NCBI GenBank assembly: GCA_907165275.2
Contig: OU015678.1
Location: 1-64,000, forward strand
DNA: 64,000 nucleotides
Direction: 5' to 3'
From: Zygaena filipendulae
Taxonomy: Eukaryota; Arthropoda; Insecta; Lepidoptera; Zygaenidae
The notes under the pieces: model-generated
The model's database searches: none
What the model was told of the DNA's origin: nothing
The model's input: only the letters and a program-made list of their open reading frames with translations
Position numbers and translations under genes: made by a program
Shown here: positions 13,783 to 64,000 of the stretch, in pieces
How positions within the stretch are numbered: position 1 is the stretch's first letter
Layout: every line of letters begins with the position of its first letter

Positions 13783-14106
13783 TTTTTTTTTTTTTTTTTT
13801 TTTTTACGTGGAGAAACGCTTATGGACATCGCGTACCACCGCATCACGGGGGCGACGCGGTGGTTATGCCGGGCTCCGACCGGCTAAAACTCCACGGTAT
13901 TCCTTCCCTGTCGCGAAGGTCGGCGAGGTCACGGGAACACGATGGTAAACTACCGCAACCCCGCCAGCGACGTCGCCAGATGTTATGGCGACCATCTCAT
14001 GTATGAGGACGCGCCGGAATGACAGAACGCGCCCTCCCTCCTCGTACCTCTATGTGAAGACGCCCCGCCCCCGCGGGACGCCCCCGAGGCATGAAGGTAC
14101 ACTTCG

Positions 14107-16710
14107 CTAAGTCACCTCCATGACCGCTCCCTGCCCTGGCTGGGCAGCACTGACGGCGACCGGAGCAGAACCGGTCGTCTTCGTCGTTGGCCTTCTCGCG
14201 GGCTTCTTGGGGGCTGAGCAACTCCAAGCTCCCAGTCGGTGCCTCGCCGGCTTTCCGTTCTCGGTGCATATAATGCACCGGACCTCGCCGAAACACGTGG
14301 CGGCTATGTGCCCAGGCACGCCGCACCGGTAGCAACACCGGCTCCTGTCGACTTCTGCGGTGCAGTTCCGCCCCACATGTCCGCCCTCTAGGCAGCGGAA
14401 GCACCGCATCGTTCGCGGCGGCAGCAGCGTCACTCGTGCAGCCGTCCAGCCCACCAATAATCGCCCTCTTTGTGCGAGCGTCTTCGCGACCGCTACTGGG
14501 CAGCGCACCCAGGCGGTACCAGTGCCGGAGGGGGCTTGCCGGATCTCACCGACAGTGACGGCCCCCACCAGGCATCCTCCCGTCTCAGCCACTTTGGCGG
14601 CTACATCCCCGCTGGTGACGGAGTCATCCAGTCCGGAAATGCGCAGTTCGGCGCACTTCACCGGCCTGGAGACCCGCACGTCTTCAGCGGGGAGAAGTCC
14701 TCGCAGTGCAGTGGCGAGGGCGTCTGCCTTCTCGCCGCTGGTCGTCCCTGGCACCTCCAGGATGCGCGCTCCAGTTGCTGCGAGCCTGAAGTTGAGTGCC
14801 GTGATGCCGAGGTCAGCCAATTTGATTTTCGACGTGGCCTCGGTTAGTACATCCTTGTACGTAAGGCCCTTCTCCTCTGCCGCGGGCTGCAGCTGCAGAA
14901 CCACGGCTGCTGAGCGGGGCGGACGTAATTTGGACGGCGCAGGCTTTCTGCGTCCCGTCGTCGTCTCAGGTGTTGTCGCCGGTTTCTTCGGCGCCTTCTT
15001 CCTGCCCGTCGCATTGGCGTTGGGCGCTGAGAGAGAGGAAGCTCCTTTCTTGTCTCTCTTCTGTCTCCCTCTTTTCACGGCCTCCGTGTAGGACCCTGGG
15101 GCCGCGGCTTCGTGGGTGGCGGGAGCGGCGGGGGCCGAGTTCTTGTTAGGCCCTTGCAGTTCCTTCTTGCGAGAGGGTTTCCGTCGCCCGCGTTTCCCTT
15201 TCTTCTTCTCTGTGGTGGCGCCGCCGGCAACCGCTGGCGGGGCTGTCAAAGCCGGGGGCGTCTCGTCAAGAGACCGTCTCTCATGCTGGAGAGGCGGCCT
15301 AGGTCTGTCCGGGAGCAAACTCCCTTCCAGTCGCGCGTCGACTATGTTGCGCACAGTGCGCATAATTTCCTCCTGGGAGAGAGATTGCTCCCGGGGTATA
15401 TCCTCCTCAATCCTTTCCGGTAACGGTGGCAGCGGCGGCGGCGGGGGCGCTACAGCGGCGCGAGCTCGCTCTAACTCCGCCTCCGCGCGGAAGGCAGCGA
15501 ATTCCTTGCGGAGTTCCGCCAATTCTTCGCAGAGGCGGGAGTTTTCCCTCCTTAAGTGCCTCACCTCCGCCGACAGCTTCTCCGTCTCTGTGGAAACAGA
15601 GTTTCCAGCCAATTCCCTGGCACGATCCTCAATCCGCATCGCCGCCTCCTTCAGGGCTCGCACGAAGGTGCCCTTAAGATGTCCGGATTTTACGGCGATG
15701 GAGGATATCAGGTCGGCATCCTCGATGATGTGCTCTCGCAGGTCGTCCGTGGTTTCCACGACCCGGTCACTGAGCTTCAGCCCGAGTTCCTCTCTTTGGG
15801 CTCTTCCAATTGGTCTTAGGACGCGGGCCTTCTGACTTAGGGCCAGCACGTCCTTCTCCGCTTGGAGCTCCAGCTCTGCTCTTTCCATGGCGACAAGGTC
15901 GGCCTTCGCCTTGGCCAGGCCGACGTATTCGCCGGTCGTAGGCGGCCGTCCCCGTCCGCGTTTCCCACCTGCTGCAGGTTTCTTTCTGCTGGGGAGGGGC
16001 GTGCCAGCGAAGTCTTCGGCGGAGGATATATCATCGGAATCCTCCAGCTCGAAGTCATGGCGCTTCCTTTTCCCGCCTCCCCCTATACTCCCCGTAGCAG
16101 AACCGATCGACATGACGTCGTCCGAGTCCTCAAACTCATGCGCATCCATCCTCTCTAAAACCACTACTGGCGATCTTAGTGAGGAGGTAGATGGTTTCCC
16201 TCCTGTGGCCCCTTTTGTTAGGGCGACCCTTCTCTTTTCCCTTTCCGCAAGAAGCACCTCAAGTCGGTACATCATGTCATCCCTTAGCACCTCCTTTAAG
16301 TCGGTGATGCTAAGGGACATCAGATACTCTTCCCGTGCCTTGAGGTTGTTTGTGTTCTTCGAACTGTCCTCCACAATGCCCTGGTGCTCCGCGATGAGTA
16401 TATCACGCAGGGACTCATAGTCCTTCTGTACAAGGTCCCTGACCTGTGTTTTTGTCAGCGACGTTAGGTCGCGCTCCCATTCTCTCTCTTCCATTAGCCG
16501 TGGCCATGCCACAAGTCGTCGTTGGTTGGGGGGCCTTGGATCCGGAGGCAGCCCCCCCTCACCCCCACTTAAAACTACACCTTCCCGACTACGCGTTGCT
16601 GCCCCCCCCACATACGAGGGGCGGCCCGGAGCTTGTCCGGGGCGGGACTGGCCGGCCCTTTCGAGGCCGGTACCCGCGTGGGGATTTTTTTCACAATCGC
16701 GTTTCTCCAT
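14107..16710 (-). CDS. Gag-like ORF1 protein (Element 6)
   Basis: An 867-residue protein from ATG at 16710; the frame stays open upstream to 16797 but only from a GTG. Layout: N-terminal acidic, Ser-rich region with a basic KRGRGRPPT patch; coiled-coil-like segment (TEKLSAEVRHLRRENSRL and on); Lys/Arg/Pro-rich linker (likely nuclear localisation and nucleic-acid binding); conserved GLDDSVT domain; zinc knuckles at about 770-783 and 793-806 (CX2CX4HX4C) and 812-831 (CX2CX8HX6C). It resembles the Element 8 protein most. By analogy with silkworm SART1 ORF1p it would coat the RNA and carry it to telomeres. No RT is encoded downstream. Confidence 0.88.
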   Translation of the reverse strand: MEKRDCEKNPHAGTGLERAGQSRPGQAPGRPSYVGGAATRSREGVVLSGGEGGLPPDPRPPNQRRLVAWPRLMEEREWERDLTSLTKTQVRDLVQKDYESLRDILIAEHQGIVEDSSKNTNNLKAREEYLMSLSITDLKEVLRDDMMYRLEVLLAEREKRRVALTKGATGGKPSTSSLRSPVVVLERMDAHEFEDSDDVMSIGSATGSIGGGGKRKRHDFELEDSDDISSAEDFAGTPLPSRKKPAAGGKRGRGRPPTTGEYVGLAKAKADLVAMERAELELQAEKDVLALSQKARVLRPIGRAQREELGLKLSDRVVETTDDLREHIIEDADLISSIAVKSGHLKGTFVRALKEAAMRIEDRARELAGNSVSTETEKLSAEVRHLRRENSRLCEELAELRKEFAAFRAEAELERARAAVAPPPPPLPPLPERIEEDIPREQSLSQEEIMRTVRNIVDARLEGSLLPDRPRPPLQHERRSLDETPPALTAPPAVAGGATTEKKKGKRGRRKPSRKKELQGPNKNSAPAAPATHEAAAPGSYTEAVKRGRQKRDKKGASSLSAPNANATGRKKAPKKPATTPETTTGRRKPAPSKLRPPRSAAVVLQLQPAAEEKGLTYKDVLTEATSKIKLADLGITALNFRLAATGARILEVPGTTSGEKADALATALRGLLPAEDVRVSRPVKCAELRISGLDDSVTSGDVAAKVAETGGCLVGAVTVGEIRQAPSGTGTAWVRCPVAVAKTLAQRGRLLVGWTAARVTLLPPRTMRCFRCLEGGHVGRNCTAEVDRSRCCYRCGVPGHIAATCFGEVRCIICTENGKPARHRLGAWSCSAPKKPARRPTTKTTGSAPVAVSAAQPGQGAVMEVT

Positions 16711-16930
16711 GGTTGCTAGTTGTTTGACGAGGTATGCCCCCCGTGACGGCCTCGTATCCGGGCCACAGAACCCGGCGAACCCCCCGGCGACCGCCACAAG
16801 CGGGGGATCCGGGGTAATTTTTTATAGAGGTTTTCTTCCTCGCGGTCCACGTTTTACGGTGAACCCTCGGTCCCACTCTGAGCCGCGAGACATGACCACG
16901 ACACTCAGAGCGGGATTACGATATGCTAGC

Positions 16931-17019
16931 GGGTCCGCTTAGCTTCACGGCTGGGAAAGATGCATCCAGCCGCTACTAAGCCCCCTCGCCACGACAAGGC
17001 GCGGACCCGATTGAGGGGG
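16931..17019 (-). ncRNA. HDV-like ribozyme fold at the Element 6 5' end (type example)
   Basis: Read on the - strand from the element 5' end: P1 CCCCCUC pairs with GAGGGGG (+ strand 17013-17019 with 16981-16987). P2 GGGUCCGC pairs with GCGGACCC (17001-17008 with 16931-16938). P3 is GCC/GGC with a 7-nt loop (16988-17000). P4 is CGGCUGG/CCAGCCG (16966-16972 with 16948-16954). J4/2 is UGAAGCUAA, with a candidate catalytic C. P2 abuts P3 and P3 abuts P1, the nested double-pseudoknot order of HDV-like ribozymes. The predicted cleavage point is the telomere/element junction. Caveat: the 5' base is C, where many family members have G. Confidence 0.75.
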
Positions 17020-17063: not shown

Positions 17064-17104
<41 letters not shown>

Positions 17105-17881
17105 ACCCAGGGAAAATGCTTTATGCATACCACCGCCCTGGGGCGAGCGGTGGTTATGTGGGACTCCGCCCTGAAAAGGACGACCCGCCCTGAGAAGGGC
17201 GGGAATACTACCCACTAAAAACCCTGGGGTGTTCACCACCTCAGCGCCTATTGCCGGGGCCGCGGGATCGCGTGAGCATACTCCGCAGCCCCGACAGCGC
17301 CAGCCCGAAACGGGCTCCGTCTCGGAGGGGCCCACTAGTGCCCCTCATCGATGACGGTGCGTCGGAACACGCGACACACCGCCGTCGTCTCCTCCTCGGG
17401 GGACTGTGTGACTGGACGCCGGACGGCCCCACGTCCGACGCCCGAAGTCCCCAGCGGCGGGTCAGGATTGTGGCCCCGCCGCCCGCCACGACGGCCGCAG
17501 GGGGTGAGTAGGGCGGTTTAGAACACCCGCACTACCCCTCCCCCACAGCCCCACCTCGCCGCCATTCACCGGTGACGGCCCCGGACCTTCAGCCGCGGTA
17601 CTCCCCAGGAGGACCGCAGCCCGCCTCAGCAACGCCGCCACCCAGAAGGGCAGCAGCGCCACCTACATAGGCCGCCTCGACCCGAACTTGCCTCCTGCAA
17701 GTCGGAGAAGCAGCCCCGTCCCGTGCCTCATACCGGGCGCGGCGCCGCGCCTCCGGATGCAGCACCGCATGCCCGATATTCCGGCCCGCCTCTGGGTCCC
17801 TCTTAGCTTCACCGTGGGTGGCTAGTCCACGGTTACTAGAGCCCCCCCGCCACGACAAGGCGAGGACCCAATTCGGGGGGG
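17064..17881 (-). mobile_element. Element 7: non-coding SART-like element, alpha tail
   Basis: Poly-T 17064-17103, alpha 3' end, short GC-rich body without a credible ORF, 5' ribozyme fold at 17794-17881. It is diverged from Elements 5, 15 and 19 but built the same way. Confidence 0.83.
17794..17881 (-). ncRNA. HDV-like ribozyme fold at the Element 7 5' end
   Basis: Here P2 is GGGUCC/GGACCC, where other alpha elements have GGGUUCC/GGAACCC: a paired change. P4 is CCGUGG/CCACGG and J4/2 contains GCUAAG. Confidence 0.72.
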
Positions 17882-17900: not shown

Positions 17901-20900
17901 TTTTTTTTTTTTTTTTTTTTTACCTGGGGAAATGCGTTTACGCACCCCCGCGCCTGGGGATAACTGGGCGCGGGGAGTGTGGGACTCGGCCAGAATGACC
18001 CCTACCCACTAAAACCCCAGGGCCCACTCCGCTTCCGCGGTGGCGGGGCAAGGCATCGCCAAAGGCTTAGTCCTTTAACCCCGCCGCGGCATCGCCAAAG
18101 TGCAATGGCGACCTGCCCGTTCCTTTGAGGGCGCGCCGGAGCGAGCGACCAAGCGCGCCCTCCCTCCCCGTGCCTCTCTGTCTAGACGCCCACCTCCACG
18201 GGCGCCCCAGAGGCACGAAGGTGATCCTGGGGGTTGGCCGGCCTGCCTCAACACTGCCTCTGCTACTAGGTTCAGAGGGAGTGGAGCAAGCCGGCCACGC
18301 AACCCTAGGACATGTCCATACCCGCTCTGGGCACAGCGGGCTGTGATGCGCCGAACACCAAGCGTACCGGAGCGACGGTGGCAGCTTTGGGTGGCGCCCT
18401 CCTCGGCGGTTTCTTGGGGGCGGTGCAAGACCCAGCCCCCAACCGGTGCCCGGCCGGTTTTCCGGCCTCGGCGCACAGAAGACACCGAGGCTCGCCGGAG
18501 CACTTGGCTGCGATGTGGCCGGGAAGGCCGCACCGGTAGCAGTGTCGGCTGCGATCGACCTCCGCGGTGCACAGCCTGCCTACATGTCCCACCTGTAGAC
18601 AGCGGTAGCACCGCAGTGGTCTGGGCGGCAGCAGGGTGACCCTGGCAGCAACCCATCCTACAAGGAGGCGCCCTTCAAGCGCCAGCTTCTTTCCGGCCGC
18701 GACTGGGCAGCGTACCCAGGCGGTGCCGGGGCCGGAGGGAGCTTGTCGAATCTCTCCGACAGTGACGGCTTCCTCCGGACAGCCTCCAAATTCGGCGACT
18801 TTGGCAGCCACCTCCCTACTGGTTACCGAGTCGTCAAGACCGGAAACGCGGAGTTCAATGCGTTTGACCGGTCTGGTGACCCGCACGTCTCCAGCAGGAA
18901 GAGCCTGCCGAATCGCAGCGGCGAGGGCATCCGCTTTCTCGCCGTTGTCCGTCCCCGACACCTCCAGGATGCGCGCTCCAGTCTTGGCAAGCCTGAACTT
19001 GATGTCCGTAATACCGAGGTCAGCCAGCTTAATCTTGGATGTGACCTCGGTAAGCACCTCCTTGTAGGTCCGACCCCGCTCTGCAGACTCCGGCTCTAGT
19101 TGTAAAACTATGGCCGCCGAGCGAGGGGGTCGAAGGTTCTTGGCCGCCGGCCTACGGGCCTTAGGCGCCACCTTTTTCTGCCCCGGCTTTTTCGGGGCCT
19201 TCCTTTCAGGTTTAGCCGGGCGTTCGGGTATTTGGGGAGGGGGATTCACACCCTTCCCTTTCCCTGTCGGCTTCTTCTTATTTCGCCTCACTACCTCCGA
19301 CCATGCCGCATCGAGACTAGCGGGTGCCGGAGGCAATGGGCGGGGATCAGGCCGTTGAGAAGCCGCGGGGGTGGGTCCCTTGGCTCCCTTGGTCTTCTTC
19401 CCTTTCCCTTTCCCCTTTGCTGGTTTGGCCGACGCCGGAGGCACCTCGGGTGTGTTGTCCGTGGTGACCGGCATCGGCTCCGGCGGCGTCGTGTCCATGG
19501 ACCGTCTCTCGTGTTGGAGGGACGGTCTCGGTCTGTCCGGGAGCAGACTCCCCTCCAGCCTAGCGTCGACAATGTTGCGCACTGTGCGCATGATGTCTTC
19601 CTGGGTGAGAGGCTGCTCCCGAACTGCCTCCCTCGCTGGTAACTCCGGTTGTGGTGACGGTAGAGGTGGTAAAGCGGCTCGTGCTCGCTCCAACTCCGCC
19701 TCCGCGCGGAACGCCGCAAACTCCTTATGGAGGCTCGCCATCTCCGCGCGAAGACGAGAGTTTTCTCTTTGGAGGGCCCTCACCTCCACCGTCAACTTCT
19801 CTGTCTCGGATGACACGGAGCAGCCGGCCAGAGCTCTGGCCCGGTCTTCGATCCGGTCCGCCGCCTCCTTTAAGGAACGGACGAACGTCCCTTTTAGGTT
19901 CGCCGACTTCAAGGCGACGGTGCGGATGATCCCCGTGTCATCGATGATGTTCTCCCGGAGGTCATCAACGGTCTCGTTGAATGGGTCTCCGAGAGCCCGA
20001 CCAAACTCTTCTCTTTGAGCTCGGCCCAAGGGCCTAAGGGCACGGGCCTTCTGGCTCATGGCCGCCACCTCGTCTTCGGCCTCGAGCTCGAGCTCTTGTC
20101 TTTCCAAGGCGGGGGGGTCCGCCTCCGGCTTATCCAGGCCAAGAAACTGGCCTCGTTGTTGCCACGTAGGCCGGCGTCCACGTCCCCGCTTGCTCCCACT
20201 CCTTTTCGATGTCGACGGCGAGGACATATAGAGGTTTTCGTCGGACAGTGCGCCGTCCGATTCCTGGCTCAGGTGCCCTCGCGGCCGCTTCCTTCTCTCA
20301 CGCCACACTGTGTCGTCAGTCGACAGATTGCCGTCGGTATCAGATGACAGTATCGTATCCATTCTCTCCAGCAACACCCGAGGCAATACCGGAGAGGGGA
20401 TAGTGACGAGACTGTCATCCGTACTCGACGCCAAACGCATCGGCTTCACTCCCTCGCGCTCCTTCGCTGCGCGCGTAATCACGCCCGCGGCGGGCGACTT
20501 CACGTTGGCCGTTGACGGCCCGGCGGCATCAGACTCGCTCCCCACCAACCTAATCCCGCGCGAGTCATTGCTACCAGACGCCAACGGCGACTCCGCCCTC
20601 CCCACGCGCACATGGGGGGGCCCTCCTTCTCTTTCACTTAAATCTAAACTTAAATCTAATTTGCTCTTACAACTAGGGGTTTTGGGTTTCGAACTTCTCA
20701 TTTTGTTCCCACGATCATGGGGGAAATAACAGGTCCACCCGAGCGGTGCCCCCTGCGCCCGGGTAAGCCTGAGGCTTAACGCCCCCAGGGGGGCGGCTAG
20801 TACCCTGCGGGCGAGCGCGCTGGCGACTGAACCTCCCATCAGCCATGCATCCCCTCACGACGCGCTATCGCTTGGGATTCGGGGTGATTTTTTATAGAGG

Positions 20901-21157
20901 TGTTCTTCCTCGCGGTCCGGGCGGCTAAGCCAAGACCCTCGGTCCCTTTCTGAGCCGCGAGACGTGATCCACGACACTCAGAATGGGATTACGATATGTA
21001 TGTTTGGTCCGCGGGAGCAAGCTCCTACCCACCATACCTAGCCAATGCCCGGAGGCAATCACTAGGTATCGCGGGCATTCCCCTATCCGCCACCTGGGGA
21101 CGCGCCGTGTCGGAGTTCATCTCTCCGCCCACCCAGACACACCGGGCAGGTCCACGG
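17901..21157 (-). mobile_element. Element 8: complete ORF1-only SART-like element, beta tail
   Basis: Poly-T 17901-17921, beta 3' end, 3'UTR to 18304, ORF1 18305-20839, then a 5'UTR with a GAGG-AAGAACA-CCTC hairpin (20897-20911). There is no ORF2. Its last 150 or so 3' bases resemble full Elements 11 and 17, the likely RT donors. I could not find the HDV-like fold at its 5' end, which begins CCGTGGACCTGCCC. Element 10 is an essentially identical full copy. The 14 bases at 21148-21161 were duplicated when Element 9 inserted here. Confidence 0.92.
18305..20839 (-). CDS. Gag-like ORF1 protein (Element 8)
   Basis: An 844-residue protein from ATG 20839; a second in-frame ATG at 20701 would remove 46 unusual Arg/Ala/Leu-rich residues, and I cannot decide between them. 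Layout: acidic Ser-rich N-terminal third; basic SKRGRGRRPT patch; coiled-coil-like region (about 339-390); Lys/Pro/Gly-rich linker; conserved ARILEVSG...GLDDSVT domain; zinc knuckles at 744-757, 767-780 and 786-805. Probable role: RNA binding, nuclear import and telomere targeting of the element RNP. The protein is closest to that of gamma-tailed Element 6, although its own tail is beta-type. Confidence 0.87.
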   Translation of the reverse strand: MGGSVASALARRVLAAPLGALSLRLTRAQGAPLGWTCYFPHDRGNKMRSSKPKTPSCKSKLDLSLDLSEREGGPPHVRVGRAESPLASGSNDSRGIRLVGSESDAAGPSTANVKSPAAGVITRAAKEREGVKPMRLASSTDDSLVTIPSPVLPRVLLERMDTILSSDTDGNLSTDDTVWRERRKRPRGHLSQESDGALSDENLYMSSPSTSKRSGSKRGRGRRPTWQQRGQFLGLDKPEADPPALERQELELEAEDEVAAMSQKARALRPLGRAQREEFGRALGDPFNETVDDLRENIIDDTGIIRTVALKSANLKGTFVRSLKEAADRIEDRARALAGCSVSSETEKLTVEVRALQRENSRLRAEMASLHKEFAAFRAEAELERARAALPPLPSPQPELPAREAVREQPLTQEDIMRTVRNIVDARLEGSLLPDRPRPSLQHERRSMDTTPPEPMPVTTDNTPEVPPASAKPAKGKGKGKKTKGAKGPTPAASQRPDPRPLPPAPASLDAAWSEVVRRNKKKPTGKGKGVNPPPQIPERPAKPERKAPKKPGQKKVAPKARRPAAKNLRPPRSAAIVLQLEPESAERGRTYKEVLTEVTSKIKLADLGITDIKFRLAKTGARILEVSGTDNGEKADALAAAIRQALPAGDVRVTRPVKRIELRVSGLDDSVTSREVAAKVAEFGGCPEEAVTVGEIRQAPSGPGTAWVRCPVAAGKKLALEGRLLVGWVAARVTLLPPRPLRCYRCLQVGHVGRLCTAEVDRSRHCYRCGLPGHIAAKCSGEPRCLLCAEAGKPAGHRLGAGSCTAPKKPPRRAPPKAATVAPVRLVFGASQPAVPRAGMDMS

Positions 21158-21161
21158 AACC
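21148..21161. repeat. Target-site duplication of Element 9, left copy
   Basis: aggtccacggaacc, repeated exactly at 27803-27816. It contains four telomeric bases plus ten bases of the Element 8 5' end. So Element 9 entered at the 5' junction of Element 8. Confidence 0.92.
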
Positions 21162-21552
21162 TTTTTTTTTTTTTTTTTTTTTACGTGGAGAAATGCTATT
21201 AGAAAGGACGTCGCATACCACCGCACCTCGGGATTGGCGCGGTGGTTATGCCGGGCTCCGACCGGCTAAAACTCCACGGTGTTCCAACTCAGTCGCAATA
21301 GAGGCGGGGTTGTGGTAACTGTAGTTAACATATCCACTTCCCCGCCAGCGACGAGCCTCCAGCGGAGGCGACCTTCTCGCGTTGAAGGCGCACTGGAACA
21401 CCAGGTGCGCCTTCCTCCTCAGGTCTCTCTTAGAGGGCACCCAGAATCCCGTGGGATACCCTCAGAGACGTCGAGGGTAAGGGGAGAGAGCTACTACCAC
21501 GCTCCGCTATGCCCTCTTGTGAACAGAGGACACTCGGAGCGGGCGTCTTCCC

Positions 21553-27491: not shown

Positions 27492-27713
27492 CTTTGTTTG
27501 CTAGTTTTCTCGAGGTATGCCCCCCGTGACAGCCTGGCATCCGGGCCGCTGTCCCCGGCGAACCCCCCACCGACTGCCACAAGTGAGGGATCCGGGGTAA
27601 TTTTTTATAGAGGTTTTCTTCCTCGCGGTCCACTTTTGATGGTGGACCCTCGGTCCCACTCCGAGCCGCGAGACATGACCACGACACTCAGAGCAGGATT
27701 ACGATATGCTAGC

Positions 27714-42215: not shown

Positions 42216-42263
<48 letters not shown>

Positions 42264-50106: not shown

Positions 50107-50257
50107 CCCGGTTCGCGACCACACCCGCACATAGACACACCCTATGCCTCATGTACCATGATGAGACATAGAGCAGTCCGCGCCGATGTGGTTCGGGCCC
50201 CCTCGCCACGACAAGGCCCGGGGTCCCCCGGAGGCAGAACTCCAGGGGGTGAGGGGG
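50107..50257 (-). ncRNA. Enlarged HDV-like ribozyme fold at the Element 17 5' end
   Basis: Same as Element 11; the differences I see leave P1, P3 and P4 unchanged. Confidence 0.5.
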
Positions 50258-50311: not shown

Positions 50312-50402
<91 letters not shown>

Positions 50403-51863: not shown

Positions 51864-51878
51864 ACCCAGAACCTAACC
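51864..51878. repeat. Target-site duplication of Element 19, right copy; also left flank of Element 20
   Basis: acccagaacctaacc. Its first ten bases recur at 55106-55115 after Element 20, where Element 21 cut the rest away. Confidence 0.9.
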
Positions 51879-52202
51879 TTTTTTTTTTTTTTTTTTTTTT
51901 TTACGTGGAGAAACGCATATGGACATCGCGTACCACCGCGCCGTGGGGACGGCGGGTGGTTATGCCGGGCTCCGACCGGCTAAAACTCCACGGCACTCCT
52001 TCTCAGTCGCGCGTCGGCGAAGGAACGGTAACCGCTATAGCATATCCGTTCCCCCGCCGCGACGTCGCCTCCCTGGAGGCGACCGACTCGGGTAAAGGCG
52101 CGCCGGAGCGTCCGAAACGCGCCTTTCTTCCTCGTGCTTCTATAGCAGGGACGCCCGTCCCCCCGGAACGCCCCCAGAAGCAACGAAGGTGGTGGAGTGG
52201 TG

Positions 52203-54794: not shown

Positions 54795-55016
54795 GGTTTG
54801 CTATTTAAATTGTCGAGGTATGCCCCCCGTGACGGCCTCGTATCCGGGCCACAGTCCCCGGCGAACCCCCCGGCGACCGCCACAAGCGGGGGATCCGGGG
54901 TAATTTTTTATAGAGGTTTTCTTCCTCGCGGTCCACGTTTTACGGTGAACCCTCGGTCCCACTCTGAGCCGCGAGACATGACCACGACACTCAGAGCGGG
55001 ATTACGATATGCTAGC

Positions 55017-55105
55017 GGGTCCGCTTAGCTTCACGGCTGGGAAAGATGCATCCAGCCGCTACTAAGCCCCCTCGCCACGACAAGGCGCGGACCCGATTGA
55101 GGGGG
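55017..55105 (-). ncRNA. HDV-like ribozyme fold at the Element 20 5' end
   Basis: Matches Element 6 in all helices. Confidence 0.75.
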
Positions 55106-55113
55106 ACCCAGAA

Positions 55114-55115
<2 letters not shown>
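55100..55115. repeat. Target-site duplication of Element 21, left copy
   Basis: agggggacccagaacc, 16 nt, repeated exactly at 58299-58314. It overlaps the first six bases of Element 20. Confidence 0.92.
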
Positions 55116-55162
<47 letters not shown>

Positions 55163-55527
55163 ACCCAGGGAAAATGCTTTATGCATACCACCGCCATAGG
55201 GTAAGAGGCGGTGGTTATGTGGGACTCCGCCCTGACAAGGGCGATCTACCCACTAAAAACCCTGGGGTGTTCCTTCTCAGCGCCTAGCGTCGGGGTCACG
55301 GGATTCGCTCTCGCATGCACCGCGACCCCGACAGCGCATAGCCGAGCATCCGGCTCCTTTTCTGGGACTTAATCCCGGGGGACCTAAGTCCCCCCTCCTT
55401 CTTCTGCTAAAAATAATAATAGGAGTGGCGCGCCGGAACACCTAACGCGCCACATAGTCTCGAGGTCCCTTCCAACGGGCGGCAGAGGTACCCCACTCTG
55501 TCACCCGGAGGACCTCGTCATGGTGGT

Positions 55528-57984
55528 CTATGTCACCGCCATGGCGGATTCTTGCCCGGCCGCTGCGGGCTGGGCTGCACCGGCGGCGGCCGGAGTCGCT
55601 CCGGCCGCTTTGGGCGATCTTCTTTGGCCACGTTTGGGGGCGCTGCAGTTCTGCGACCCCAAACGGTGCCCCGCCGGTTTGCCAGCCTCGGCGCACAAGA
55701 CGCACCGAGGCTGGCTGCTGCACGCTGCCGCAACGTGGCCAGGCTGGCCACAGCGGTAGCATAGGCCACCTCGATCGACCTCCGCGGTGCACTTGCTCCC
55801 CACATGTCCCGCGTGGAGACAGCGGAAGCACCGCAGAGGTCGGGGCGGCAGCAATGTGACTTTGGCTGCCACCCACCCCACCAGGAGACGCCCTTTAAGC
55901 GCCAGCGCCTTAGCCGCCGCGACCGGACAGCGCACCCAGGCGGTGCCGATTCCGGAGGAGGCATGCCGGATCTCTCCGACTGATACGGACCCCTCCGGGC
56001 AGTCACCCTGCTGGGCAACCTTGGCTGCTACTTCCCCGCTGGTAACAGAGTCATCCAGACCAGAGATGCGCAGCTCTGCGCGTTTCTCCGGCCTGGTGAC
56101 CCGCACATCTTCAGCGGGGAAGATTCCTCTCATAGCAGCGGCGAGGGCGTCTGCTTTCTCGCCGCTGTCCGCCCCTGGCACCTCTAAGATGCGTGCTCCG
56201 GTTACGGCGCACCTAAACTTCATATCAGTGATGCCGAGGTCGGTCAGTTTTATTTTGGACGCGGCCTCGGTCAGCACGTCGCGGTAGCTGCGACCCCCAC
56301 GCTCGGCTTCCGGCTGCAGCTGGATGACTACTGCCGCCGAGCGAGGGAGGCGGAGTCTTTTCGGCCCTGGCGCTTTGGGCCTAGCCGCCTTCCCTTTCTT
56401 TGACTTGGTTGTCGCCGACCCCGGCGCCGATTGTCCCGGCGGAGACTTCTTCGCCGGTGCGCCAGGCGCCGATATCGGGGCAGCCTTTCCCTTCTTCTTT
56501 TTCTTCCCCCGTTTCACTACCTCCGAGTAGCCAGCGTCCATATTCGCCGGGGCTGGTGGGAGTGAACGGGGGGCATCCTTCTCTGGGACCGGTTGGGAGG
56601 GTTCCTTTACCCTCTTCTTGGATCCCTTCTTAGGTCCCTTCTTGGGCTGGCTCTCAGGTGCTGGCACACAATTGCTGGCAGCTGTTGCCACAGCCTCTTG
56701 TTGTGACGACCGTCCCTCATGTTGGAGGGGCGGGCGTCGTCGCTCCGGAAGCAGTCTCCCCTCAACTGCGGCCTCGACCATGTGTCGGATCGTGGCCAGC
56801 AGCACCTCCTGAGAGAGAGGCTGCTCCCGAGCCTCCTGTTCTTGCCTACCTGAGGGTGGCGTGGGAGCACTTCGAGCTCCAATCGTCTCCGCGCGGAGGG
56901 TGGCGAATTCCTTGCGTAGTCCGTCAACCTCCGCGCGAAGGCGAGCGTTTTCCGACGCCAGCCTTGCTGTCTCCTCAGTGACGGAGCGTTCAGCGAGGGC
57001 CTTGACCCTGTCATCTATCCGTGCCGCCGCTTCCTTCAGGGCCCGGATATCTGTGCCCTTCAGGTGTCCCGCCGTCACGGCGACACGGCAGATGACCTCC
57101 GTGTCCTCAAAAATACGGTCTCTAAGGTCGCAAGATGCCTCATTGAGCGAGGCAGCCCCAACCCCCGAGCCCGAGCCTTTTCCGGCTCTGGCGACGCGCT
57201 CCTCTACGTTGCGCGACTTCGCCCTAGCGCTCTTGCGCCCCCTCTTAGGTCCGTCGCCTCCCGACTGGGATCCGGCGGAGCTGTCGGAGAGCGGATCGTC
57301 CTCCTCCATACCCTCTCGCAGTCGTTTCCTTGTCCCGCTGCTGTCACGGGACGAGCAGGCGACTGACGCACGGCCGCCCGAGACCGACGCTGGAGATACC
57401 TCCATCCTCTCTAAAACCACAACAGGTGATTTCAAAGAGGGGGCGGCAATTTTCCCCACGCCCGAACCAGACGGCGGAGCGGCAGTCGCCGCGGGGGTGG
57501 CAGTTATTAGCTGCTGCTTCCTCTTGTCTATGAAATATGTGATCCTATACGACATGTCGCGTCTGACCTCTTCTTGGAGCTCTTCCTCTGAGAGGGTCCA
57601 CACGAGCTCCCAGATTGGCCCACGACTGTCGCAAGGATCACCCGAATCGCGGAAGGCTGCCCGTTCCTCAATGAACTCCTTAACAAGAGATGAACACTCC
57701 CGACGGACCTGGTCGTGTATCTCCTGCTCTGTGAGGGTCGTGAGGTCCTCGGGCCAGCCCTTCCAGCTCTTAATGAGTTGGGGATCTACAATGAGCGGGC
57801 GGTGTTTCACCCGCTTTACTCTTCTTCTAACTCCTCCTTCTTCGTCATTAAAGACGGAACGCAAAGGTGCCCCCCCCAGATACGAGGAGCTGCCTGAGCC
57901 CGAGGGCCCAGGGAGGGGTTCTCCAGCCCTTTCGAGGCCGGTACCCTCCTGGGGTATTCTGTTATTGTCCTTTTGCGCTTTCAT
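55528..57984 (-). CDS. Gag-like ORF1 protein (Element 21)
   Basis: An 818-residue protein from ATG 57984. The same frame is open to 58155 through the 5'UTR without an ATG, and I do not count that. It has an acidic N-terminal region, a GPKRGRKSARAK basic patch, a coiled-coil-like region (EETARLASENARLRAEVDGL), a Lys-rich linker, the GLDDSVT domain and zinc knuckles from about residue 719. It is close to the gamma-tailed Element 20 protein in its second half but quite different near the N-terminus. Confidence 0.87.
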   Translation of the reverse strand: MKAQKDNNRIPQEGTGLERAGEPLPGPSGSGSSSYLGGAPLRSVFNDEEGGVRRRVKRVKHRPLIVDPQLIKSWKGWPEDLTTLTEQEIHDQVRRECSSLVKEFIEERAAFRDSGDPCDSRGPIWELVWTLSEEELQEEVRRDMSYRITYFIDKRKQQLITATPAATAAPPSGSGVGKIAAPSLKSPVVVLERMEVSPASVSGGRASVACSSRDSSGTRKRLREGMEEDDPLSDSSAGSQSGGDGPKRGRKSARAKSRNVEERVARAGKGSGSGVGAASLNEASCDLRDRIFEDTEVICRVAVTAGHLKGTDIRALKEAAARIDDRVKALAERSVTEETARLASENARLRAEVDGLRKEFATLRAETIGARSAPTPPSGRQEQEAREQPLSQEVLLATIRHMVEAAVEGRLLPERRRPPLQHEGRSSQQEAVATAASNCVPAPESQPKKGPKKGSKKRVKEPSQPVPEKDAPRSLPPAPANMDAGYSEVVKRGKKKKKGKAAPISAPGAPAKKSPPGQSAPGSATTKSKKGKAARPKAPGPKRLRLPRSAAVVIQLQPEAERGGRSYRDVLTEAASKIKLTDLGITDMKFRCAVTGARILEVPGADSGEKADALAAAMRGIFPAEDVRVTRPEKRAELRISGLDDSVTSGEVAAKVAQQGDCPEGSVSVGEIRHASSGIGTAWVRCPVAAAKALALKGRLLVGWVAAKVTLLPPRPLRCFRCLHAGHVGSKCTAEVDRGGLCYRCGQPGHVAAACSSQPRCVLCAEAGKPAGHRLGSQNCSAPKRGQRRSPKAAGATPAAAGAAQPAAAGQESAMAVT

Positions 57985-58209
57985 CTTTGTTGTTGCTATG
58001 TGGTTTCGGGATATGCCCCCCGTGACGGCCTCGTATCCAGGCCACAGTCCCCGGCGAACCCCCCGGCGACCGCCACAAGCGGGGGATCCGGGGTAATTTT
58101 TTATAGAGGTTTTCTTCCTCGCGGTCCACTTTTGACGGTGAACCCTCGGTCCCACTCTAGGCCGCGAGACATGTCCACGACACCCAGAGTGGGATTACGA
58201 TATGCTAGC

Positions 58210-58298
58210 GGGTCCGCTTAGCTTCACGGCTGGGAAAGATGCATCCAGCCGCTACTAAGCCCCCTCGCCACGACAAGGCGCGGACCCGGTTGAGGGGG
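58210..58298 (-). ncRNA. HDV-like ribozyme fold at the Element 21 5' end
   Basis: As Element 6, with J1/2 AACC in place of AAUC. The 5' base is fixed by the 16-bp target duplication beginning at 58299. Confidence 0.77.
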
Positions 58299-58314
58299 AG
58301 GGGGACCCAGAACC
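58299..58314. repeat. Target duplication: right copy for Element 21; last 14 bases are the left copy for Element 22
   Basis: Matches 55100-55115 over 16 nt; its last 14 nt (ggggacccagaacc) match 59711-59724. Confidence 0.9.
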
Positions 58315-58987
58315 TTTTTTTTTTTTTTTTTTTTGTGACCCAGGGAAAATGCTTTATGCATACCACCGCCCCCGGGCCGGGGCGATGGTTATGTGGGACT
58401 CCGCCCTGAAAAGGGCGACCCGCCCTGAGAAGGGCGGGAATGCTACCCACTAAAAACCCTGGGGTGTTCCTTCTCCGCGCCTATCGCCGGGACCACGGGA
58501 ATCGCTCTCGCATACTCCGCAGCCCCGGCAGCGCCAGCCCAATGAAGGGCTCCTCCTCGAGGGGCCCACTAGTGCCCCTCAGAACGAGAACGAGGGCGGC
58601 GCGTTGGAAACACACAACGCACCGCCCCGGGGACCCTGTGCAATGGACGCCAGTCGGGCCCGTGACTGGCGTCCAAGGTCCCCTGCGACGGGACAGCTGG
58701 GTGGCCCCGCCGCCCACCACAAAGGACGCAGGGGTTGGGGAGCTTGGCAGGCGCCGACCAAACTCCCCCTCCCCCACACCCTTTCTCAGCCGCGGTGCTC
58801 CCAAGGAGAGCCACGGCCCGCCTCAGTAGCGCCGCCGTCCCTAAGGGCGGCGGCACCACCTACATAGGCCGCCTCCAACCAAGCTTGCACTTACACAAGC
58901 CGTGGAGACAGCCCCGTCTGGTGCCTCGTGCCGGCGGCGCCATCGAAACAGCACCGCAAAGGCACTCCGGCCCACCTCTGCAGAGGG

Positions 58988-59427
58988 ATGCGCCCCCGTG
59001 TCGGCGCCGTCTCTGGATAACGCCGACACGAGGGAGCACACTCGACCTCTGACCTCCAGGCAGCCCCGAACCGATGCATATAATTGACTGCATCGGTTCG
59101 GGGATGCCAGGTCCTGGGGCCTCGGGTCAGTGTAGACAAATTTGTACACTGGCACGAGGGCGCAGGCCTCCCTCTCCCAGAGAGGATGGATGCGCCCCCA
59201 TGTCGGCGACTCAACGAAAATCGCCGACACGAGGGAGCACTCAACCCCCGACCGCCAGGCGCCCCCGAACCGACGCACACGGCTGGTTGCGTCGGTCCGG
59301 AGATGCCACATGACCTGGAACCCCGTGTCGGTGCAGGAGAGTAGGTGCACCGGCCCAGGGTTGCAGGCCTCCCTCCCCCAACTATTTCCTACCCCCGGGT
59401 CGATGCATTCTTTCTTATGCATCGATC
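58988..59427 (-). repeat. Tandem hairpin units of about 200 bp in Element 22
   Basis: Same organisation as 10436-10875 in Element 3. Confidence 0.7.
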
Positions 59428-59622
59428 AGAAGGTGCCAATCTCCCTTCAGCCAGCGAGTCAAGAGCAGTCCCGAACCGGCGTAGGACCAACACCGATACG
59501 AGAGTGCCCCCCACTACTAGCTCCAACTTCCTTGTAGCCCCGGACCGGTGGGGTCCATTTTCCACCGGCCCGGGGATGCAAGGCAGTCTTCCCACTCGAT
59601 GGCCTTTAACAGGCCCCTCCTC

Positions 59623-59710
59623 GGGTTCCTCTTAGCTTCACCGTGGGCAAACCAAGACCACGGCTACTGAGCCCCCCCGCCACGACAAGGCGGGAACCCA
59701 TTCGGGGGGG
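59623..59710 (-). ncRNA. HDV-like ribozyme fold at the Element 22 5' end
   Basis: Same as Element 3: P2 GGGUUCC/GGAACCC, J4/2 GCUAAG. Confidence 0.7.
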
Positions 59711-59724
59711 GGGGACCCAGAACC
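59711..59724. repeat. Target-site duplication of Element 22, right copy
   Basis: ggggacccagaacc, matching 58301-58314; the exact left edge is blurred by the G-run. Confidence 0.82.
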
Positions 59725-59764: not shown

Positions 59765-60083
59765 TTTTTTTTTTTTTTTTTTTACGTGGAGAAACGCATA
59801 TGGACATCGCGTACCACCGCGCCGTGGGGACGGCGGGTGGTTATGCCGGGCTCCGACCGGCTAAAACTCCACGGCACTCCTTCTCAGTCGCGCGTCGGCG
59901 AAGGAACGGTAACCGCTATAGCATATCCGTTCCCCCGCCGCGACGTCACCTCCCTGGAGGCGACCGACTCGGGTAAAGGCGCGCCGGAGCGTCCGAAACG
60001 CGCCTTTCTTCCTCGTGCTTCTATAGCAGGGACGCCCGTCCCCCCGGAACGCCCCCAGAAGCAACGAAGGTGGTGGAGTGGTG

Positions 60084-62675
60084 TCAGCTCGCGTCCATAG
60101 CGGCCTCTAAAGGAGGGCCACTGGGGCGAGGACACCCCACCTGTGCCACCGTCGTGGGTGACTCGTGCCCGGCCACTGTGGGCTGGGCAGCACCGGCGGC
60201 GGCCGGAGACACTTGGGCCGCTTTTGGTGTCCTTCTCGGGATTCGCTTGGGGGCGCCGCAACTCTGCGACCCCAATCGATGCCCCGCCGGTTTGCCAGCT
60301 TCGGCGCACAAGACGCACCGAGGCTGGCTGCTGCATGCCGCCGCAACGTGGCCGGGAAGGCCGCAACGGTAGCACAGTCCGCCTCTATCGATCTCGGCGG
60401 TGCATTTCCGCCCCACATGGCCAGCATGGAGGCAGCGGAAGCACCGCAAAGGTCGGGGCGGCAACAAGGTGACTTTCGCTGCCACCCACCCCACCAATAG
60501 GCGCCCTTTCAGCGCCAGTGCCTTGGCCGCCGCGACCGGGCAACGTACCCAGGCGGTGCCAGTCCTGGAGGGGGCATGCCGGATTTCTCCGACGGATACG
60601 GACCCCTCCAGACAGCCGCCTTGCTGGGCGACTTTGGCCGCTATTTCCCCGGTGGTGACGGATTCATCCAGGCCGGAGATGCGCAACTCCACGCGCCTTT
60701 CTGGCCTTGTGACCCGTACATCCCCAGCGGGGAAAACTCCTCTCATGGCAGCAGCGAGGGCGTCTGCCTTATCGCTGCTTTCCGCTCCTGACACCTCCAG
60801 GATGCGCGCTCCGGTCACGGCAATCCTGAGCTTCATATCTGTTATTCCGAGGTCAGCCAGTTTAATCCTGGACTTGGCCTCGGTCAGAACATCTCGGTAG
60901 CTCCGCCCTGTTCGCTCAGCTTCTGGCTGCAGTTGTATCACCACAGCCGCTGATCGAGGGGTACGGAGCTTGCTAGGCACCGGCGCTTTTGGCCGCACCT
61001 TTCCTCCTTTTTTTGACTTGGCTGCCGCCGCTCGCGGCGCCGACTGCCCCTGCGAAGACTTCTTCGCCGGCGCAACAGGCGCCGAGGTCAGGGCAGCCTT
61101 GCCTTTTTTCTTCCCTTTCCCCCGTTTAACCACCTCCGAGTAACCAGCGTCCATGTTGGCCGGTGCCGGGGGCAGTTGACGGGGGGCATCCTCCCTGGGG
61201 GCTTGTGTGGTTGCCTTGGTGGCCTTCCTCCTTCTGCGCACCTTTTCCCTTCCTGATTCGGTGACCGGCGCTGCCTCGTGAGTCGAGGTGGCCGGTAGCG
61301 TCCTTTCTGATATCCGCCTCTCGTGTTGGAGAGGCGGGCGTGGGCGGTCGGGTATCAGCCTCCCATCTACTCTTGCGTCCACCATATGGGCGATGGTACG
61401 CAAGAGCTCCTCTGAGAGAGGTTGCTCCCGCCGCTCCGCAGTCACTTCCGGTAGGGACGGAGCGGCACGCATCCTGGCCCGCTCCGTCTCAATCTCCGCA
61501 CGGAGGGCGGCGAAGTCCTTTCGAAGAACGTCGACCTCCGCACGAAGACGGGCGTTTTCAGCCGCCAGTTTCGCCGTTTCCTCGGACACGGAGTGTGCCG
61601 CTAGGACTTTGGCTCTGTCTTCTATCCGCGCCGCTGCCTCCTTAAGGTCTCGGATAAATGTCCCCTTAAGGTTGCCCGATGTGCTGGCGACGCGGCAGAT
61701 AGCCTCCGTGTCCTCAAAGATTTTGTCTCGAAGGACGTTGGCTGACTCTTCATTGGCCGCTATATCTCCGACCCCTGAGCCTGACCCTTTACCGGCCCTG
61801 GCGACTCTCTCCTCTATACTGCGCCCTGCCGTTTCCAACTTGCGGCCTCTTTTGGCTGCCCGGGCGTGAGGCTGAGACTCACACCGCTGTCGCTTCCGTG
61901 ATACACTGCTGTCGCGGGACGAGCAGGCTGATGACGTAACGTCGTCCGAACCAGACGCCGTCTGCACGTCCATCCTCTCCAAAACAACTACTGGAGATTT
62001 TATGGAAGGAACGACAGATTGGATGGCGCATGATCCAGATGCCTGTATAACCTTCTTTGGGTTCACAGGATCCACTCCATCTTGAGGCGAGGAAACCCCG
62101 CCCTCAATGTTCAATGCCGGGTGGGCTTTTACCTTCTTTTCTTGGGCCGCGGTGGAAGACTGCGCGACCCTCTGCTTACTGGTGCAAGCCTCGGCTCTAA
62201 GCTCCTGGCGCCTAGCCAGCAGCAGCTCAAGCCGGTAGCGCATTTCTTTGGGCACGTACTTCTCGACGTCATCCGTAGAATGATGATACAATGCCTTTTG
62301 CCGGGGGGTGGCGTTCGCCACCTCGATGACCCCGAACACCATGTCGTCCAGTTCCTTGGTGAGGGTCCTCACGAAGACCTCTCCCTCCTGACGCACCTTC
62401 TCTTTTATTTGCGACTCGCTCATGACAGCGAGATTCGCCTCCCACTCCTTAACACGCATCATGTCCTTCCATGCCAAGAATTGTTGGTATTTGGGTGGCC
62501 TTGGATCTGGAGGTGGCCACCCCTCACCCCCACTTAAAACTACACCTTCCCGTCTACGCGTTGCTGCCCCCCCCACATACGAGGGGCGGCCCGGAGCTTG
62601 TCCGGGGTGGGACTGGCCGGCCCTTTCGGGGCCGGTACCCACGTGGGGATTTTTTTCACAAGCGCGCTTATCCAT
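60084..62675 (-). CDS. Gag-like ORF1 protein (Element 23)
   Basis: An 863-residue protein from ATG 62675, the same length and domain order as Element 20 (zinc knuckles 745-758, 768-781, 787-806). A handful of residue changes are visible, for example HH for QC near residue 130 and S for Y in the SRTGTAW/YRTGTAW phrase. Intact. Confidence 0.88.
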   Translation of the reverse strand: MDKRACEKNPHVGTGPERAGQSHPGQAPGRPSYVGGAATRRREGVVLSGGEGWPPPDPRPPKYQQFLAWKDMMRVKEWEANLAVMSESQIKEKVRQEGEVFVRTLTKELDDMVFGVIEVANATPRQKALYHHSTDDVEKYVPKEMRYRLELLLARRQELRAEACTSKQRVAQSSTAAQEKKVKAHPALNIEGGVSSPQDGVDPVNPKKVIQASGSCAIQSVVPSIKSPVVVLERMDVQTASGSDDVTSSACSSRDSSVSRKRQRCESQPHARAAKRGRKLETAGRSIEERVARAGKGSGSGVGDIAANEESANVLRDKIFEDTEAICRVASTSGNLKGTFIRDLKEAAARIEDRAKVLAAHSVSEETAKLAAENARLRAEVDVLRKDFAALRAEIETERARMRAAPSLPEVTAERREQPLSEELLRTIAHMVDARVDGRLIPDRPRPPLQHERRISERTLPATSTHEAAPVTESGREKVRRRRKATKATTQAPREDAPRQLPPAPANMDAGYSEVVKRGKGKKKGKAALTSAPVAPAKKSSQGQSAPRAAAAKSKKGGKVRPKAPVPSKLRTPRSAAVVIQLQPEAERTGRSYRDVLTEAKSRIKLADLGITDMKLRIAVTGARILEVSGAESSDKADALAAAMRGVFPAGDVRVTRPERRVELRISGLDESVTTGEIAAKVAQQGGCLEGSVSVGEIRHAPSRTGTAWVRCPVAAAKALALKGRLLVGWVAAKVTLLPPRPLRCFRCLHAGHVGRKCTAEIDRGGLCYRCGLPGHVAAACSSQPRCVLCAEAGKPAGHRLGSQSCGAPKRIPRRTPKAAQVSPAAAGAAQPTVAGHESPTTVAQVGCPRPSGPPLEAAMDAS

Positions 62676-62897
62676 GGTTTGCTATTTAAATTGTCGAGGT
62701 ATGCCCCCCGTGACGGCCTCGTATCCGGGCCACAGTCCCCGGCGAACCCCCCGGCGACCGCCACAAGCGGGGGATCCGGGGTAATTTTTTATAGAGGTTT
62801 TCTTCCTCGCGGTCCACGTTTTACGGTGAACCCTCGGTCCCACTCTGAGCCGCGAGACATGACCACGACACTCAGAGCGGGATTACGATATGCTAGC

Positions 62898-62986
62898 GGG
62901 TCCGCTTAGCTTCACGGCTGGGAAAGATGCATCCAGCCGCTACTAAGCCCCCTCGCCACGACAAGGCGCGGACCCGGTTGAGGGGG
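62898..62986 (-). ncRNA. HDV-like ribozyme fold at the Element 23 5' end
   Basis: As Element 6, with J1/2 AACC. Confidence 0.75.

Positions 62987-63013: not shown

Positions 63014-63015
<2 letters not shown>
62989..63015. repeat. Telomeric repeat (CCTAA)5 + CC
   Basis: Five CCTAA units between Elements 23 and 24. Confidence 0.97.
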
Positions 63016-63064
<49 letters not shown>

Positions 63065-64000
63065 GTGGAGAAACGCTAGGACATCGCGTACCACCCACCG
63101 TGGGGACGGCGGGTGGTTATGCCGGGCTCCGACCGGCTAAAACTCCACGGCACTCCTTCCAAGTCGCACAGTGACGGGGGGGCGGTGACCGCTATAGCAT
63201 ATCCGCCCCCCGCCGCGACCACGCCCTCATGGTGTTACCGGGCGACCATCTACAAAGGCGCGCCGGAGTGTCCGGGACGCGCCTTTCTTCTTCGCGCTCC
63301 TTAATGGGGACGCACCTTCCCCACGGTACGCCCCCAGGAGTGGCGAAGGTGGTGGTGAGGGGTGTCAGTCCTCGTCCATGATGACCTCTATAGCAAGAGG
63401 GCCACCGGAGACGACTTCCCCCACCTGTGCCACCGCCGCGGGCGACTCCTGCCCAGCCTCGGGCCGGGCAGCACCGACGGCGACCGGAGGCGCTCCGGTC
63501 GTCTTAGGCGTCCGCCTTGGACTCCGCTTGGGGGCGCCACAAGATGGCGACCCCAAGCGGTGCCCCGCTGGTTTGCCAGCCTCGGCGCACAAGATACACC
63601 TAGGCCGGCTGCTGCACATCGCCGCTATGTGGCCGGACAGGCCGCAGCGGTAGCACAAGCCACTTCTGTCGACCTCTGCGGTGCATGTCCGCCCCACATG
63701 ACCAGCATGAAGGCAGCGGAAGCACCGCAGGGGCCGATGTGCCAGCAGGGTTACCCTGGCTGACATCCACCCCACCAATATGCGCCCTTTTAGCGCCAGC
63801 GCCTTTGCGGCAGCCACTGGGCAGCGCACCCAGATGCTGCCAGTGCCGGAGGGGCCAAGGCGGATTTCTCCAACCGAGATAGACCCCACCGGACAACTCC
63901 CTTCCTGAGCGACCTTCGCGGCGACCTCCCCTCGGGTGACCGAGTCGTCCAGGCCGGAAATGCGCAATTCAGCACATTTAACCGGCCTGTCGACCCGTAG
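63016..64000 (-). mobile_element. Element 24: SART-like element, gamma tail, 5' part beyond the window
   Basis: Poly-T 63016-63062, gamma tail, 3'UTR to 63364, then the C-terminal part of an ORF1 that runs off the window. No ORF2 lies between ORF1 and the tail, so it is another ORF1-only element. It is a distinct subfamily, not a copy of Elements 6, 20 or 23. Confidence 0.9.
63365..64000 (-). CDS. Gag-like ORF1 protein, partial (Element 24)
   Basis: About 212 C-terminal residues in an open frame reaching the window edge. It shows the GLDDSVT domain and three zinc knuckles (CFRCLHAGHVGRTC, CYRCGLSGHIAAMC and a third CX2CX8HX6C), then an acidic C-terminus ending MDED. The rest of the protein is outside the window. 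Confidence 0.88.
   Translation of the reverse strand, partial: LRVDRPVKCAELRISGLDDSVTRGEVAAKVAQEGSCPVGSISVGEIRLGPSGTGSIWVRCPVAAAKALALKGRILVGWMSARVTLLAHRPLRCFRCLHAGHVGRTCTAEVDRSGLCYRCGLSGHIAAMCSSRPRCILCAEAGKPAGHRLGSPSCGAPKRSPRRTPKTTGAPPVAVGAARPEAGQESPAAVAQVGEVVSGGPLAIEVIMDED

Follow-up and report, generated by a model that had tools for sequence, protein, structure and literature searches.

The first 64,000 nucleotides of a 5.7-Mb contig of the lepidopteran Zygaena filipendulae (OU015678.1, called here C29; the window, C29:1-64000), whose genome comprises 365.9 Mb in 56 contigs, carry an array of retrotransposons set in (TTAGG)n repeats. Three kinds of SART-like element are found there, nine that encode open reading frame 1 (ORF1) and no ORF2 (called here ORF1-only), three full-length and 11 non-coding, together with one TRAS-like element (Table 1). 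The SART-like elements lie on the minus strand and were delimited by the T-run that represents their reverse-complemented 3' poly(A) and usually adjoins AACCT. Like SART elements, which are telomeric non-LTR retrotransposons of the R1 group, they are inserted in TTAGG repeats and end in poly(A), and the name SART-like appears warranted by the insertion site, the orientation relative to the TRAS-like element, the gene order and the TAATG junction described below. PMC12036569 assigns to Lepidoptera the type of TTAGG array that contains TRAS as well as SART elements. Genome-wide, TTAGG 25-mer matches number 33,388 in the forward and 30,014 in the reverse orientation. A telomerase RNA-binding domain was detected in an open frame at C24:4269269-4269625 (54.1 bits), and telomerase is therefore probably available in this genome.

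Table 1. Elements and features of the window (A, B and C denote the 3' tails; aa, amino acids)
Feature	Position	Strand	Description
TRAS-like element	1-7235	+	endonuclease, reverse transcriptase (RT) and RNase H domains between 2949 and 6671; oriented opposite to the other elements, with its poly(A) running into CCTAA
E1	7298-9719	-	5'-truncated ORF1-only copy of the E7 family, 99.96% identical
E2	9759-11158	-	non-coding, C tail
Non-coding element	11188-12799	-	C tail
Non-coding element	12869-13738	-	C tail
E5	13783-17019	-	ORF1-only, A tail; ORF1 867 aa from Met; stop-to-stop frame 14107-16821
Non-coding element	17064-17881	-	C tail
E7	17901-21161	-	ORF1-only, B tail; ORF1 844 aa (18305-20854); 5' end without ribozyme core
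E8	21162-27812	-	full-length partner, A tail; ORF1 24726-27500, ORF2 21553-24807; stop-start TAATG
E9	27872-31128	-	ORF1-only, B tail; ORF1 844 aa; 100% identical to E7 over 3257 nt
E10	31163-37578	-	full-length partner, B tail; ORF1 34572-36827, ORF2 31447-34773; TAATG
Non-coding element	37603-39220	-	C tail
Non-coding element	39230-40674	-	C tail
Non-coding element	40689-42215	-	C tail
Non-coding element	42216-42935	-	C tail
Non-coding element	42936-43812	-	C tail
E16	43857-50257	-	second full-length B-tail copy, 97.3% identical to E10; TAATG
E17	50312-51169	-	5'-truncated copy of the E19/E22 family
Non-coding element	51179-51869	-	C tail
E19	51879-55115	-	ORF1-only, A tail; ORF1 863 aa (52203-54800); = L003
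E20	55116-58314	-	ORF1-only, C tail; ORF1 818 aa (frame 55528-58194); = L016; 3' untranslated region (3'UTR) resembles that of full-length E24
Non-coding element	58315-59720	-	C tail
E22	59765-62986	-	ORF1-only, A tail; ORF1 863 aa (60084-62681); = L001
A-type 3' tail (E22)	59765-59950, approximate	-	CCGTGGAGTTTTAGCCGGTCGGAGCCCGGCATAACCACC...CTCCACGT-poly(A); from alignment
Hepatitis delta virus (HDV)-like ribozyme fold, E22 5' end	62898-62986	-	CCCCCTC...GCGGACCC, 89 nt
E23	63016-64000	-	ORF1-only, A tail; cut by the window; whole element C29:63016-66373

Two further stretches were read whole. C29:64001-84000 contains, up to 73133, the rest of E23 and one full-length C-tailed element (E24). 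C25:8477418-8517417, which was picked for its matches to the E22 ORF1 and is not a random sample, has six elements of the ORF1-only kind and three without coding capacity, besides a TRAS-like element and a single full-length one of the C type, F7, which is cut.

In the ORF1-only elements, ORF1 is followed directly by the 3'UTR and poly(A), and the intact frames of the window encode 818 to 867 aa, counted from the first Met. Their ORF1 stop is TAG or TGA without an overlapping ATG. The ORF1 stop of the full-length E8, E10 and E16 overlaps the ORF2 start as TAATG, the C-type full-length elements (E24 included) have TAA, 8 nt and ATG between the two frames, and in other full-length relatives ORF1 ends in TAG (L060, L061) or TGA (L063, L067). 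Endonuclease and RT domains are present in the ORF2 of E8 and E10, and in that of E16 by identity. A zf-CCHC domain was detected in all seven ORF1s scanned (E1, E5, E7, E8, E10, E19 and E20), the E19 value of 20.1 bits being just below the cut-off of 20.8, and the CCHC knuckles gave a profile match to those of retroviral nucleocapsids. A low-confidence model predicts that ORF1 also carries a coiled coil and an RRM-like fold. The closest named protein is from the moth Achroia grisella (P0004; 37% identity over 55% of the query), one of two ORF1 relatives found, the other being P0003.

Hidden remnants of ORF2 are ruled out as an account of this layout, as tblastn of two ORF2 proteins against six regions behind the ORF1 stop revealed no recognisable remnant (best E = 0.34). 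The same holds for 5' truncation, given that six of the elements are whole within the window and that the missing part is internal. The original prediction, made from the DNA letters alone, had described nine ORF1-only SART-like elements, five of them with intact ORF1s of 818-867 residues, that were no 5' truncations, and all of this agrees with the boundaries and frames determined here (867, 844, 863 and 818 aa) and with the recurrence of the layout across the genome. It had also ranked them as the commonest coding elements, which is correct for coding elements (9 of 13) and needs two additions: the 11 non-coding elements exceed them in number, and E1, outside the interval then given, belongs to them as well.

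Related copies were searched genome-wide with three ORF1 proteins, the best candidates only being scored (52 of 556 for the E22 ORF1, 50 of 812 for E5 and 49 of 650 for E8). At least 116 related ORF1 places were obtained, 61 of which were read past the ORF1 stop; none had an ORF2 and 58 reached poly(A). The remaining three (L043, L070 and L074) end, by read or contig, before poly(A), L070 and L074 after showing an A-type 3'UTR. From the E22 search, L001-L050 were fetched and 49 were readable. In 48 of these, ORF1 leads into a 3'UTR and poly(A); in the other, L043, the contig ends first. GGTTAGG lies directly behind poly(A) in 35 of these 48 loci, and frames of at least 805 aa are found in 47 of the 49, the others being L032 (570 aa in the piece fetched) and L014, whose start is outside what was read. 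The E5 search yielded 50 further non-overlapping places, of which 11 were read (E5, E7, E9, F1, F3 and L068-L073), and the E8 search added 14 places assigned by identity and frame length to the L033 and L074 families, of which L074 was read. An ORF2 with endonuclease and RT, as SART elements have, was thus absent from 61 of 61 ORF1-only loci read, and these are therefore non-autonomous derivatives rather than autonomous SARTs. The state recurs at many contig ends, which rules out chance, and its presence on many contigs likewise rules out a single local deletion. In what was sampled, neither of the outcomes that the original prediction had named as fatal to it, such a deletion with ORF2 in most copies or a dN/dS of about 1, is seen.

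Full-length relatives are fewer than ORF1-only places among the matches listed. ORF2 searches, in which the best 42 of 2982 (A and C groups) and the best 42 of 3053 (B group) candidates were scored, so that the counts are lower bounds, gave at least nine nearly complete and three partial A-group places, at least seven nearly complete and one or two partial C-group places, and at least 15 complete and six partial B-group places. When positions were compared by hand, 10 of 13 ORF1 places of the E8 lineage had an ORF2 match directly downstream. A further 21 ORF2 places at 72-76% identity (about 74% to E8), with frames of about 1052-1100 aa, lie in many cases far from contig ends (for instance C26:2073283, C8:5345105, C4:1785874 and C10:12217894) and possibly represent a SART relative that has left the telomere. 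The ORF1-only copies are mostly near contig ends, with few elsewhere (C5:8105366, C24:5074117). One of the latter, L010 (C5:8105366-8107372), is a mid-contig copy whose open frame spans 837 aa and which has an A tail and poly(A); it is 90% identical to the E22 ORF1 over residues 213-865, and no TTAGG directly follows its poly(A).

The ORF1 frames are under purifying selection. Among 18 copies of the E20 family (L013-L030, excluding L031, L032 and two places that had not been fetched), omega (dN/dS) is 0.28, with 70 synonymous and 57 non-synonymous variant codons (binomial p 1.8e-12). Among nine copies of the E22 family, without the diverged L010, omega is 0.45, with 26 synonymous and 34 non-synonymous variant codons (p 0.002). 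These within-family differences postdate the loss of ORF2, because the copies have the ORF1-only junction in common. Between ORF1-only lineages, the median omega over the last 330 aa is 0.255 (123 pairs), compared to 0.184 for full-length pairs (64 pairs), both for pairs with dS of 0.2-1.6; dS is about 1 or more between many of the ORF1-only lineages. Values well below 1 within families and between lineages rule out neutral relics, and the selection on the protein that had been proposed from the intact frames is thereby substantiated.

To place the ORF1-only proteins among their relatives, a tree of 33 rows was built on the C-terminal 330 residues of ORF1. One branch, with support 96/95.8, separates the 17 ORF1-only rows from the 16 full-length ones (97/95.3 with 16 ORF1-only rows). 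This favours a single, old loss of ORF2 and a subsequent radiation over parallel losses. The E8 group is sister to this clade with modest support (82/74), and the simplest history would accordingly place the single loss in an A-tailed relative of E8. Several ORF1 lineages are indeed ORF1-only, as had been claimed, but it is improbable that the four lineages then distinguished are independent cases.

The 3' ends divide these lineages differently. Three tails occur, each matching a different full-length element, A that of E8, B that of E10 and E16, and C that of E24, and all have in common the core TTTTAG.(C/G)GGT...GAG.CC..CA. The B-tailed E7 and F1 resemble the ORF1-only E5 (about 75%) over the final stretch of ORF1 and the beginning of the 3'UTR, whereas from the common GGCGGGGTT onward E7 matches the full-length E16 (91% over 171 nt). 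Similarly, the C-tailed E20 aligns with E22 up to the ORF1 stop (83% over 245 nt) and past it with the 3'UTR of the full-length E24 (79% over 98 nt and 90% over 176 nt), the latter homology beginning close behind the position of the ORF2 stop. Two of the three tails thus look as if they had been acquired inside the 3'UTR or where it begins, in a direction suggested by the ORF1 tree, and such chimeras would result from template switching during reverse transcription. Tail capture would explain why the 3' ends of the lineages differ. In the silkworm SART1 system, as described in PMC7265360, a reporter RNA bearing the 3'UTR was mobilised in trans by a helper, and a common tail is therefore a plausible link to the helper.

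At the 5' end, E22 appears to adopt an HDV-like fold, presumably with ribozyme activity, and E5, E8, E19, E20 and the non-coding elements begin with the same fold. Window elements and fetched loci gave 75 such cores, a count that takes some window elements twice. All 64 that were evaluated form a nested double pseudoknot with a P1 of 7 bp, a P2 of 7-9 bp, a P3 of 3 bp, a P4 of 5-9 bp and the joining strand GAAGC[CT]AA. Seven cores near the sequence start (E2-E6, E11 and E22) were judged by eye or alignment, their 5' ends looking alike, and four of the 75 (E10, E16 and one each in L021 and L024) have no joining strand within 90 nt. Compensatory changes between families are found in P1, P2 and P4, for example GGGTCCGC/GCGGACCC versus GGGTTCC/GGAACCC. 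No match to an Rfam HDV-like model was among the seven Rfam matches at E <= 1. In place of the ribozyme core, E7, E9 and E23 of the window and F1 of C25 open with CCGTGGACCTGCCCGGT..., ten bases of which, CCGTGGACCT, also precede the ribozyme of E8. It should also be noted that the first 300 nt from the ribozyme are 90-98% identical across E5, E8, E20, E22 and E24 (C29) and F3 (C25), two full-length elements included, despite far-diverged ORF1s (97% between E22 and the full-length E24); this 5' module gives the impression of having been exchanged or homogenised, or of being under very strong constraint.

Taken together, these observations make it very probable that the ORF1-only elements are a monophyletic, non-autonomous, SART-like telomeric lineage that lost ORF2 once, radiated with a functional ORF1 and depends on helpers in trans. 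Their RNA, which in most families would start with the HDV-like ribozyme, would encode the ORF1 protein only and end in the tail of one of the three autonomous elements, and the endonuclease and RT of the autonomous ORF2 with the matching tail would reverse-transcribe it into (TTAGG)n in trans. A selected protein in an element unable to transpose alone most simply favours its own RNA; it would have been retained with such a cis preference, most likely for coating and carrying the RNA that encodes it, and may also target the telomere. Lineages would change helper by acquiring the tail of another element.

Several points weigh against this account. The ORF1 protein of a helper could coat these RNAs too, in which case strict cis action would be unneeded. 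Selection on ORF1, although real, is slightly weaker than in full-length elements (0.255 versus 0.184), and the N-terminal part of the ORF1-only proteins is looser still (omega 0.43 over 90 pairs). A search ranked on protein may favour low dN, yet lower-scoring families are listed below the two tested. The clade is drawn from the last 330 aa of ORF1, and its support was 76/49 with only five full-length rows, or 89/91 when two outside proteins were added. A first tree with three full-length rows (one A, no C) did not resolve how E5 and E7, which paired, are related to E8, grouped with the Achroia protein, and to the 50 remaining ORF1-only rows. A full-length element could sit unscored inside the clade, since the best candidates only were scored and 61 of 116 places read. 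The stop codon alone is no mark of the ORF1-only state, and E7, E9, F1 and E23 are without the ribozyme core.

The best of the alternatives, which we nevertheless regard as unlikely, is that each family arose from its own full-length parent by a recent internal deletion, with inherited ORF1 conservation and later decay, as in HAL1, which arose several times according to PMC5753468. The different 3' ends on related ORF1 lineages look like separate origins, and the clade was unresolved or weak before full-length rows were added. These differing ends are chimeras, however, and the single clade of 17 rows at 96/95.8, the dS values near or above 1 for many pairs of its lineages and the omega below 1 among copies with a common ORF1-only junction all argue for the single old loss. 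Less probable still is a use of ORF1 by the host, in which the protein would be kept for the chromosome end, in capping or telomere chromatin, and not for its own RNA, and the elements tolerated as building blocks. The location of most copies near contig ends agrees with it, as does the interaction of HeT-A Gag with chromatin-related proteins, reported in PMC5537684 to affect telomere stability, but frames are intact across many copies and diverging families, telomerase is probably available, and selection at the level of the element accounts for the data without any benefit to the host. Least credible of all is the copying of immobile elements between ends by unequal exchange, break-induced replication or gene conversion, for although identical copies lie close together (E7, E9) and break-induced expansion is described for the MoTeR arrays of the blast fungus in PMC7367193, same-family copies differ in the sequence behind poly(A) and in their 5' flanks, a few lie away from contig ends, and conversion alone would not hold omega low.

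The stages of such a history are found next to one another in one genome: autonomous helpers with an open ORF2, a selected ORF1-only clade, chimeras, and elements that code for nothing yet bear one of these tails. The chimeric tails show how a helper can change, in a genome in which telomerase is probably still present. The action of ORF1 in cis on its own RNA becomes testable, as does whether the 3' tail decides which RT copies an RNA.

The 11 non-coding elements have a 5' end of the same style as the coding ones and the C tail, and some hold arrays of 150-bp and 85-bp repeats (11863-12635, 38284-39056, 39904-40534 and 41424-42047), with open frames of up to 451 codons on the plus strand; the three that were scanned gave no Pfam match. 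The TRAS-like element starts no later than the first base of the contig, and its ORF2 has a C-terminal RNase H domain (4.1e-16), which was found in neither of the two SART-like ORF2s scanned. Matches to the Rfam family mir-3389 lie on the plus strand at 22765-22833, 32650-32716 and 45344-45410, antisense to the ORF2 of the three full-length elements (E 6e-8, 2e-4 and 2e-4, all under the gathering score), and this "miRNA" family may be a retrotransposon fragment.

In the searches made of open-access literature, we found nothing like this ORF1-only system, and five known systems can be set beside it. In pairs of long and short interspersed elements (LINEs and SINEs), the helper recognises a common 3' tail and the SINEs are non-coding, whereas the elements described here have kept a protein. 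SART1 of Bombyx mori is likewise inserted in TTAGG with a poly(A) and has ORF1 followed by ORF2 (endonuclease, RT), the latter being what the ORF1-only elements lack. Kojima, as cited in PMC2881922, is said to have described in 2005 a translational coupling through UAAUG in SART1, and the same stop-start is present in E8, E10 and E16. HAL1 (half-L1) of mammals is also a LINE derivative with ORF1 only and is not known to be telomeric. It had several origins in the account of PMC5753468, whereas one radiating clade is favoured here, one loss being simpler; the parallel with HAL1 drawn in the original prediction does not hold to that extent, and its comparison with HeT-A is apt. MoTeR2 of Magnaporthe is telomeric, without RT, and has both ends in common with the RT-bearing MoTeR1, but in the description given in PMC7367193 an unrelated 786-bp stretch of no obvious function replaces the RT region and there is no conserved ORF1.

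HeT-A of Drosophila is a telomeric non-LTR element that encodes Gag/ORF1 only, is the most abundant of its array, obtains RT from elsewhere and has a full-length relative, TAHRE (as outlined in PMC4700185 and PMC5537684). The elements described here work, by analogy, like HeT-A: they encode ORF1 only, are telomeric, are the commonest coding element (9 of 13 in the window, at least 116 places) and have full-length relatives. The likeness would be one of way of life, with no identity claimed. Telomerase repeats are missing from Drosophila, where the elements are assumed to join onto the ends of DNA, whereas those of Zygaena lie inside TTAGG, have helpers with an endonuclease domain, probably coexist with telomerase, carry a 5' ribozyme fold and three helper tails, and belong to another insect order. 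The origin of HeT-A is described as unclear in PMC5537684. That a second, independent invention of this way of life is seen in Zygaena, in which a clade of ORF1-only elements makes up much of the coding content of TTAGG telomeres, swaps helpers by tail capture and may repay them with ORF1 protein or delivery to the telomere in trans, is a tentative and rather doubtful proposal; if true, the protein supply and the RT supply of telomere retrotransposition would reside on different elements.

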